Shown here: in pieces, positions 32,531-51,820 of the stretch
How the letters are laid out: every line of letters starts with the position of its first letter
Numbering within the stretch: the stretch's first letter is position 1
From: Brumimicrobium aurantiacum
Lineage (GTDB): Bacteria > Bacteroidota > Bacteroidia > Flavobacteriales_D > Crocinitomicaceae
DNA: 64,000 bases
Reading direction: 5' to 3'
Assembly: GCF_003402975.1 (NCBI RefSeq)
Contig: NZ_QURB01000001.1
Coordinates: 1 to 64,000 of the forward strand
The notes under the pieces: model-generated
What the model was told of the DNA's origin: nothing
Seen by the model: the letters and a program-made list of their open reading frames with translations, nothing else
Database searches by the model: none
Program-made: the position numbers and the translations under genes

Positions 32531-32977
32531 TTAAATCATGTTCGAATTGAAATATTTAGGCTGATCTGACACTTCCTCTAACAACCATTTTGGACGTGAA
32601 AAAGTATCATTTTCATTTTGTAATTCAATTTCGGCCAATACAAGACCTGGTTGTGGTGAATCGAATTCATCAACCTCCCAAGTGTAATTGCCTTGTTCAA
32701 CAAAATACCGTGTTTTTACAATTTTCTGATCACAAAATTCTTCTAACATTTCTAAGGCATCTTCCTTTGGAATAGGATATTCAAATTCTGAGCGTGAAAC
32801 ACCTTTTGTAATTCCTTTGATGGTAATAAAAGCTTCCTCTCCCTTGATACGTACTCGTACAGTTTTTTCAGGAACCTTTGAAATATACCCTTGTATGATT
32901 TCCACACCTTTTTGAGGTTTTAAGGCAGACCAAATCTCTTCATCAACCAAAAACTTTCTTTCGATTTCTTTTCCCAA
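32531..32977 (-). CDS. CYTH domain-containing protein
   Basis: The 148-residue protein begins MGKEIERKFLV, the ExExK metal/triphosphate motif of the CYTH superfamily, with later basic strands RVRIKGEEAFITIKG and the ELEYPIPKEDALEML-like region. Such small bacterial members are usually triphosphatases acting on inorganic triphosphate or nucleotides. It starts one base after the end of gap and is probably co-transcribed with it. Confidence 0.88.
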   Translation of the reverse strand: MGKEIERKFLVDEEIWSALKPQKGVEIIQGYISKVPEKTVRVRIKGEEAFITIKGITKGVSRSEFEYPIPKEDALEMLEEFCDQKIVKTRYFVEQGNYTWEVDEFDSPQPGLVLAEIELQNENDTFSRPKWLLEEVSDQPKYFNSNMI

Positions 32978-48733: not shown

Positions 48734-48769
48734 AGACAAAAGTCAGAATTCACTTAAAAAATCAACGTA

Positions 48770-49771
48770 TTAACTTAAAACAGTTAATACAGTTCTTCCT
48801 TTCATCTTACCTTGTAACATTAACTCAAGTTTACGATCAATCTCATTAAATTTAATTTCATTACAGCGTTCCTCTAGTTCGTATGGTTTTCATTCATCTG
48901 ATAGCTTTCTCCAAACCTCTTTCCTGTATTTCATTGGATAGTTTTGAGAATCAATTCCTATTAAATTAATACCTCTTAAGATAAAAGGGAACACGGTTAA
49001 CTCTAATTTTGGTGAAGCAACGTTTCCACAACTTGTTACCACTCCCAAAGAATTTGTTGATTTAATGATATTTTCTAAAATAACTCCTCCTACCGTATCA
49101 ATTGCTCCAGCAAACAATGGTTTCAATAATGGCTTTTTAGCAAAGTCTTCTACCTCCTTTCTTGACATAATCTCTTTTGCACCCAAAGCATAAAGGTAAT
49201 CTTGTTCAGTTTCCTTTCCACTTATTGCAATTACAGAATAACCTAAACAACTTAAAAGTGCGACACTTAATGCGCCAACACCACCTGTCGCACCAGAAAC
49301 AACAATTTTACCGGCGTCAGGCTGTATGAACTCACTCAATCTCAACACTGACATACCAGCAGTTAATCCTGCTGTACCTATAATCATGGCTTCTTTCATA
49401 GACATTTTAGTAGGAAGTTTTACAACCAAATCACCAGGAACATAAACATATTCAGCGAAGCCACCATCCGTATTCATTCCTAAGTCATAACTTGTAACGA
49501 TGACTTCTTCTCCAACATTAAATTCATCATTATTAGATTCCTCGATTACACCTACAGCATCGATTCCTGGGGTATGAGGAAAATTTCTTGTCACCCCTTT
49601 ATTTCCTGAAGCGGATAATGCATCTTTATAGTTTAAAGAACTGAAATGTATTTTAATAAGCACCTCATTATTTTCTAAGGCTCTAAATTTCAATTCTTTT
49701 ACTTCTCCTACAAATTGATCGTTTATGTTTTCAACGCGATATGCTCTAAAAGTCTTGTTGTTACCTTTCAT
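48770..49771 (-). pseudogene. AcuI/YhdH-type NADPH-dependent reductase broken by an in-frame TGA
   Basis: The zinc-free MDR-family reductase (quinone/acrylyl-CoA type) begins MKGNNKTFRAYRVEN (49771), with SSLNYKDALSASGN, HTPGIDAVG and the NADPH motif VVSGATGGVGALSVALL (near residue 160). The frame stops at TGA (48890-48892) after WRKLSDE. Read through, it continues in frame as KPYELEERCNEIKFNEIDRK and so on for 39 residues to TAA at 48770. That tail, ending GKMKGRTVLTVL, is the normal YhdH end. The stop sits where the family usually has Trp in LSxxWK, so a single TGG to TGA change fits. The full length would be about 333, the normal size. Confidence 0.8.
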
Positions 49772-49907
49772 GTGAATTTGTTTTAAATGTTTACTTTCAT
49801 ACAAACACATAAATAAAAACACTGCTAATCAATACCTTACAAAAAGTTCTAAAATGAACATTTTGTGCTGTTTTTAGTATTTACACCGTTTAAACTGAAG
49901 AAAAAAA

Positions 49908-50234
49908 ATGAAAAAAAGTTACTGTCCGATCGATACATTTATCAATGTGGTGAAAGGAAAAAGGAAAGCAACAATTATTTTGCATCTTTTTCAAGGTGAT
50001 AAAAGGTATAGTGAATTAGCAAAATTATTAACAGATATCAGTGAACGTATGCTTTCGAAACAACTGAAAGAATTAGAAGCTGATGGATTAATTACAAGAA
50101 CAGTATTCCCTGAGGTACCTCCTAGAGTAGAATATAGTTTATCAGATCTTGGGACAGAAATACATCCAGTTTTAAAATCGATGTTTAAAGGAGGTATTTT
50201 ATTTGAAAAGTCAATCGACGAAGTTGATGGTTAA
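49908..50234 (+). CDS. HxlR-family transcriptional regulator
   Basis: This 108-residue winged-helix regulator starts MKKSYCPIDTFINVVKGK, with ILHLFQGDKRYSELAKLLTDISERMLSKQLKELE as helix-turn-helix and RVEYSLSDLGTEI as the wing. Many relatives have a conserved redox- or electrophile-sensing Cys near the N-terminus (Cys5 here). It is divergent from the broken reductase, with 136 bases between the start codons, and is probably its regulator. Confidence 0.9.
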   Translation: MKKSYCPIDTFINVVKGKRKATIILHLFQGDKRYSELAKLLTDISERMLSKQLKELEADGLITRTVFPEVPPRVEYSLSDLGTEIHPVLKSMFKGGILFEKSIDEVDG

Positions 50235-50270
50235 CCTTTTGTACTCAAAGGTCACCATCAATTCATTTGT

Positions 50271-50765
50271 TTAAATAAAACTACTGTCGAACCTTTCAAA
50301 GTGACACGTATAACCATTTGGATGCTTTTGCAAGTAATCTTGGTGCTCTGGTTCAGCAGCCCAAAATGGTGAAAATGGCTCTAAAGTGGTCGCTACTTCA
50401 CCTTCCCATTTATTTGAATCATTCACAATCTTGATTACCTTTTTGGCTATTTCTAGTTCTTCCTCGTTTTGATAAAAAATAGCTGAGCGATAACTAGATC
50501 CAATATCATTTCCTTGTCTGTCAACAGTTGTAGGATTATGTATTCTAAAGAAGTAATCCAATATTTCTTCAAATGAAGTTTGTGTTGCATCATAAGAAAT
50601 TTCAATACCTTCAGCGTGTCCAGGATGATTTCTATAAGTAGGATTCTGATTCTCCCCTCCTATATAACCAACTTCTGTGTCAACAATACCTGGACGAACA
50701 CGAAATAATTCTTCCATTCCCCAAAAACAACCTCCTGCTATATATGCTTTCTTTATATTCTCCAT
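50271..50765 (-). CDS. msrA: Peptide-methionine (S)-S-oxide reductase
   Basis: MsrA repairs oxidised methionine. The 164-residue protein has the catalytic motif AGGCFWGMEE (Cys13), TEVGYIGGENQNPTYRN and the HAEGIEISYD region. It is an MsrA without a fused MsrB. It stands alone, between the HxlR regulator and an EamA transporter. Confidence 0.95.
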   Translation of the reverse strand: MENIKKAYIAGGCFWGMEELFRVRPGIVDTEVGYIGGENQNPTYRNHPGHAEGIEISYDATQTSFEEILDYFFRIHNPTTVDRQGNDIGSSYRSAIFYQNEEELEIAKKVIKIVNDSNKWEGEVATTLEPFSPFWAAEPEHQDYLQKHPNGYTCHFERFDSSFI

Positions 50766-50902
50766 TTGATCACAATCTTTTTACGATTTTACAAAAAATT
50801 CTTGAAAATACTTAACACAAAGCAGCTTAGAATTGTTTAAAAATTGAAACAGTCCCCATTGCTGAGATTCAAAGAAACACTATAAAAATAAATAAGACAA
50901 TA

Positions 50903-51820
50903 TCATTTTTGCAAACGTTCCTTTCTCAACATCCGACTCCTCACCATAGTGTTCCCTAATACCCCGACAATAATCAAGAGCATTCCTGCAATGGCATAAA
51001 GAGAAATGACTTCATCAAATAAGAAAAGTCCCAAGACAAAAGCATAGATGGAACCTAGATATTTGAAAGGAGTTACTGTTGCGGTATTGGCCAAGTGTAA
51101 AGATTTAGCCGCAAAGATTTGTGCAATATGCGTAAATACACCAATCACCAAAATGATTCCCCATTCTTTTCCTTGTGGAACAACATAATCAAAAGCGGTG
51201 AGAATAGCCATTACTGGAATTGCGATGATCGGAAAATAAAACACTACAGTTATCGGAGCATCAGTTGTACGGCATTTTGCAATTGCATTATACGCCATTC
51301 CAGCAAAAGCTGCAGAAAATACACCAACCACAATCCACCAAGGATCAATTTGAGAAATCTGAGCTTCTTCACTTAAAGATTTAGAAAAACTAATGCATAC
51401 AATTCCTAAAAATGCCAAGAGAAAAAAGAGTCCTTGTATTGGTTTTACTTTCTCTTTCAATATAAATATAGCCAACAAAACGGTAAAAATAGGACTTAAA
51501 TACTGTATTGTAGCTGCAATTGCAATGGGTAAATTATTTAAGGTGTAAAAATACAAGGTTAGCGCAATGGTTCCTGAAATTCCTCTAATCACCAGCCACT
51601 TCTTGTTATTACCCAAAAGCGGAAGACCTTTTTGTTTAATTACCGCTAAACAAATCGAAAATGTTATGATGGATCTAAATAGGATTATCTCAGGGATTGG
51701 GTATTTTTGTAAACCGGATATGATTTCTTGATCTGGACCTTGTCCAAGAATTTTCACGAGGACATTTACTATAATGTAACAAAGTCCAGACAAAATCATA
51801 TAAAGTATTCCCTTATTCAT
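50903..51820 (-). CDS. EamA/DMT family transporter
   Basis: The 305-residue membrane protein has about ten helices in two repeated EamA domains, starting MNKGILYMILSGLCYIIVNV. It probably exports small metabolites or amino acids. The substrate is unknown. It is divergent from the MutS-like gene with 33 bases between. Confidence 0.88.
   Translation of the reverse strand: MNKGILYMILSGLCYIIVNVLVKILGQGPDQEIISGLQKYPIPEIILFRSIITFSICLAVIKQKGLPLLGNNKKWLVIRGISGTIALTLYFYTLNNLPIAIAATIQYLSPIFTVLLAIFILKEKVKPIQGLFFLLAFLGIVCISFSKSLSEEAQISQIDPWWIVVGVFSAAFAGMAYNAIAKCRTTDAPITVVFYFPIIAIPVMAILTAFDYVVPQGKEWGIILVIGVFTHIAQIFAAKSLHLANTATVTPFKYLGSIYAFVLGLFLFDEVISLYAIAGMLLIIVGVLGNTMVRSRMLRKERLQK

Follow-up and report, generated by a model that had tools for sequence, protein, structure and literature searches.

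The window, a 64,000-nucleotide stretch at the start of contig NZ_QURB01000001.1 of Brumimicrobium aurantiacum, carries on its minus strand a yhdH-like reductase gene whose reading frame (48770-49771) comprises 334 codons for 333 residues and is broken by a sole internal stop, a TGA at codon 294 (48890-48892). The frame starts with ATG at 49771 and ends with TAA at 48770-48772; codons 1-293 (48893-49771) would encode the shortened product, and the 39 in-frame codons behind the stop (48773-48889; 48770-48889 with the TAA) align with the C-terminus of the relatives. The initial annotation had described an interruption by a single TGA with the frame open on both sides and a normal family C-terminus in the last 39 residues, and both statements are borne out. 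On the plus strand the reductase is faced by an intact, divergently oriented gene for an HxlR-type regulator of 108 residues (49908-50234; PF01638, 93.9 bits), from which it is separated by an intergenic region of 136 bp (49772-49907). Next follows msrA for methionine sulfoxide reductase on the minus strand (50271-50765; TIGR00401, 164.6 bits).

The tail is regarded as a genuine part of the gene because of its homology to the family C-terminus; secondarily, a 39-codon tail stays open in only 1.6% of 20,000 mononucleotide shuffles. A restart at the ATG overlapping the TGA, read by eye, was rejected, as it yields ten codons in another frame and not the tail. No close second copy of the reductase was found in the same genome, where the next matches are partial and 26-30% identical. 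In a spot check for wider decay, the TTG-start ORF at 32531-32977 beside a GAPDH-like gene was considered as a frameshifted piece and turned out to be a CYTH-domain gene of its own.

By its profile matches the gene is assigned to the YhdH/YhfP (acrylyl-CoA reductase-like) subfamily of the medium-chain reductases. Translated through the stop, it scores 418.9 bits with TIGR02823 over profile positions 2-324 of 324, and codons 1-293 on their own reach 382.4 bits, so both exceed the cut-off of 297.25; without read-through the profile is covered only to position 285 of 324, leaving the C-terminal part incomplete. Both Pfam matches, ADH_N (34-120) and ADH_zinc_N (164-289), lie before the stop. The cut-off of 440 of the AcuI equivalog model (NF051456) was missed with 310.1 bits, and acrylyl-CoA as substrate is therefore only a family-level guess. 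Acrylate resistance has been linked to E. coli yhdH and Ruegeria acuI in PMC3338564.

The stop column was compared across 33 relatives' loci, consisting of 20 matches from the order search, 11 further ones, one from the phylum and class searches and the best 1 of 858 plasmid records, with the two distant partial matches of the own genome (26-30%) left out. No stop occurs within the aligned part of any of the 33, and the residue at this column is Trp in 24, Leu in six, Tyr in two and Phe in one. All ten of the closest relatives (62-73% identical), the record titles of which include Mesonia, Draconibacterium, Tangfeifania, Winogradskyella, Algibacter, Aquimarina, Sunxiuqinia, Flavobacterium and Pareuzebyella, carry Trp. 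Judged from this alignment, Trp is the residue expected at codon 294 for this branch, and an aromatic residue or Leu in the wider family. The TGA had been proposed to replace the Trp of an LSxxWK motif; the Trp holds, while the motif proved only partly right, since 18 of the 24 Trp-bearing relatives have Ala and six have Ser at its second position, one (L089) has Phe at the first, and Trp is followed by Lys, Asn, Arg or Ser. A stop absent from all 33 relatives, with homology on both sides of it, is the pattern of a nonsense pseudogene; conservation of the stop in relatives, by which programmed read-through would be recognized, was found in none.

With the stop, the protein loses its final tenth. 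In an AlphaFold model built from 12 sequences (mean pLDDT 86.9, pTM 0.87) the lost part holds a helix (308-319) and two strands (304-306 and 327-330), with block-mean pLDDT of 76-92 after residue 300. Truncation also deprives the protein of P296, L299, G321 and R326, which are invariant in the 12-row alignment, and of six nearly invariant positions. Because conserved and confidently folded parts are missing, the 293-residue product would be inactive, and loss of the C-terminal part most likely leaves the enzyme without function.

TGA seems to serve as an ordinary stop in this genome, with no sign of recoding in the features searched. Among 48 window ORFs taken as genes, hand-picked out of 56, TGA is the end codon in five, TAA in 38 and TAG in five. 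The release factor gene prfB is present without an internal stop (496 bits), and the only tRNA-Trp among the 34 tRNA places found, with 150 of 311 candidates scored in one search, has the anticodon CCA. The window itself contains two adjoining tRNA-Val genes on the minus strand (705-780 and 844-919) that share the anticodon TAC and have identical scores. No selA match was found in the genome, the control search giving a match in 4 of 14 genomes and one above the cut-off in a single genome; likewise no tRNA-Sec above the 47-bit cut-off was found with 150 of 164 candidates scored, a search in which 5 of 14 controls passed the cut-off. Nine weaker tRNA-Sec matches below 47 bits were discarded, all lying where ARAGORN calls ordinary tRNAs. 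A change of the genetic code, with TGA read as Trp (code 4) or as selenocysteine, was rejected on the combination of CCA as the only tRNA-Trp anticodon, intact prfB, lack of a selA match and lack of a tRNA-Sec over the cut-off. Downstream RNA structure beyond chance was not found either: a 71-base segment starting immediately ahead of the TGA has a folding energy of -2.8 kcal/mol (z +1.00), which 174 of 200 shuffles equal or better.

The age of the stop was approached by comparing the tail with the body of the gene, a test of low power with 39 sites in the tail and near-saturated synonymous sites. In a protein tree of 14 sequences, poorly supported with several nodes below 60, the tail/body ratio of tip lengths is 1.92 for the window and 0.7-4.63 for the other 13 tips. 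In separate codon trees of 11 tips no tail branch is longer than that of the window (2.37), whose body branch measures 1.95. Against the other ten close members the window gene averages 71% identity before the stop and 51% after it, where the lowest means of the other members are 69% for the body (L089) and 51% for the tail (L017). The ratio from the protein tree thus appears unremarkable, and the codon trees together with the identities would speak slightly against a young stop. On the other hand, only one of the eight tail residues invariant in the other ten members is broken, by a conservative change from I to L, and the second codon positions of the tail differ least (0.10-0.26) and the third most or equal most (0.50-0.62). 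The tail does not look like sequence long freed from selection, and most of its divergence probably predates the stop. Since the tail keeps most of the conserved family residues, the stop is probably young, weak as the age test is. In the body, 8 of the 146 positions invariant among the other ten are broken, compared with 0-3 for eight of these ten and 11-12 for two, so the gene as a whole may be under relaxed constraint.

The neighbourhood was followed through the relatives as well. The same divergent pair with near-equal spacing occurs in six of the loci of nine close relatives (L010, L011 and L013-L016), and the window regulator shares 89-93 identical residues with the six regulators encoded there (105-108 residues). 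No HxlR gene adjoining the reductase was found among ORFs of at least 90 residues in L012, L017 and L018, though the upstream DNA of L012 is similar. Between the two genes, the alignment of the window with six relatives of other lineages shows AAATGTTC and GTAAG without variation. The intergenic region probably holds the operator and the promoters, and the invariant AAATGTTC/GTAAG is a possible candidate for the HxlR operator.

Within its family the reductase gene stands as an island. At E<=1e-50 a match is missing in 239 of 240 genomes of the family, only the genome of the window itself giving one, and among well-completed family genomes (completeness of at least 90%, contamination of at most 5%) 150 of 151 have no match. 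The order search over 399 genomes returned 20 other matches with 45-49% identity, none from the family of the window, and the phylum and class searches (395 genomes each, E<=1e-120) both returned the same single other genome, at 62%. Accordingly, the nearest relatives presumably belong to other families. With a 6.2-kb DNA query around the gene, 10 genomes of the genus gave 33 hits, and none of those outside the genome of the window covers the reductase or hxlR. The lineage-specific stretch of yhdH, hxlR and msrA (48750-50930) is absent at this site in all four sister species checked, which represent 4 of the nine sister genomes, and the flanking genes of both sides are present there. Two of the four have 121 and 283 bases between the matched flanks, and the other two carry different sequence of 4.3 and 4.7 kb there (L095, 660-4979; L096, 263-4940), so the site may be prone to insertions. 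DNA resembling msrA at near full length occurs elsewhere in three sister genomes. The reductase-regulator pair was probably gained horizontally, which is the simplest reading of this distribution; the alternative is its loss in many sisters.

Taken together, the locus is most likely explained by a nonsense mutation of recent date in a YhdH/YhfP gene that is dispensable and was probably gained horizontally along with its HxlR regulator. The reductase would have been acquired from another lineage together with the divergent regulator, and a single nonsense substitution in a codon that presumably specified Trp in the ancestor would then have inactivated it, with translation ending at the TGA, the 293-residue product being inactive and the stop being real and fixed in the strain. 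Of the three readings offered in the initial annotation, namely a recent mutation, a sequencing error and a read-through site, the data favour the recent mutation by the checks of the code, the tRNAs and the release factor and by the lack of RNA structure, and the same checks leave programmed read-through without support. Besides the results of the age test that lean the other way, further points count against the preferred reading: the truncated protein still passes the TIGR02823 cut-off and may keep residual activity, and a conserved tail is expected also of a gene that is used via read-through.

The main rival is an error of sequencing or assembly, with an uninterrupted gene in the cell. 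It would fit one isolated change in an otherwise intact setting, in which the regulator is conserved, as are stretches of the intergenic region and most of the tail; however, the error would have to be a substitution and not a homopolymer indel, and it would have to sit in an assembly of good statistics (3.4 Mb in 22 contigs, 99.81% complete, 0.04% contaminated), which makes it unlikely. If the stop is real, the near-cognate tRNA-Trp might read TGA at some per cent and supply a little full-length enzyme, possibly tolerated or useful. PMC7918605 describes TGA in E. coli as a leaky stop decoded as Trp at very low frequency, gives 6% read-through for one construct in B. subtilis, and argues that many bacterial in-frame stops sit in genes under purifying selection. 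Such leakiness elsewhere, a site that is Trp in 24 of 33 relatives and a largely conserved tail would suit functional read-through, yet the stop occurs in none of the 33 relatives, while that study retained only stops present in at least two genomes, and the downstream structure is lacking and the code and release factor are ordinary. Low-level read-through may occur, without specific support, and a functional role of it is decidedly improbable.

A more elaborate form of the same idea takes the TGA as a natural dimmer, with the newly gained reductase kept low by leaky TGA-to-Trp decoding under the intact HxlR regulator and thus attenuated rather than lost; we consider this very doubtful. That the truncated protein of 293 residues is itself an active or altered enzyme could be argued from the two Pfam domains preserved before the stop, but the loss of the four invariant and six nearly invariant positions and of the helix and two strands of the model, together with the lack of a stop at this place in all 33 relatives, renders it extremely improbable. 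The preferred reading of a recent nonsense mutation has its main consequence in annotation, where the gene should be marked as a probable pseudogene, and it is of little importance beyond that. Should the TGA be old and the tail still conserved, the locus would be a compact case in which to test leaky UGA decoding in a Bacteroidota lineage.

Among known systems, the regulator resembles the HxlR type through its PF01638 domain and scores 82.6 and 71.2 bits with RrpB and RrpA, the nearest NCBIfam models, under their curated cut-offs of 175 and 185; a limited literature search found no paper joining HxlR with YhdH. With the bacterial genes with in-frame stops treated in PMC7918605 the window gene shares a single in-frame stop with homologous residues on both sides, but those stops were required to be present in at least two genomes, whereas this one is seen in a single genome. 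To the YhdH/YhfP subfamily, in which the three solved structures closest in sequence are 1xa0, 1tt7 and 1o89, it is matched over its full length if read through, and it differs in stopping at codon 294, which removes the last 39 residues.
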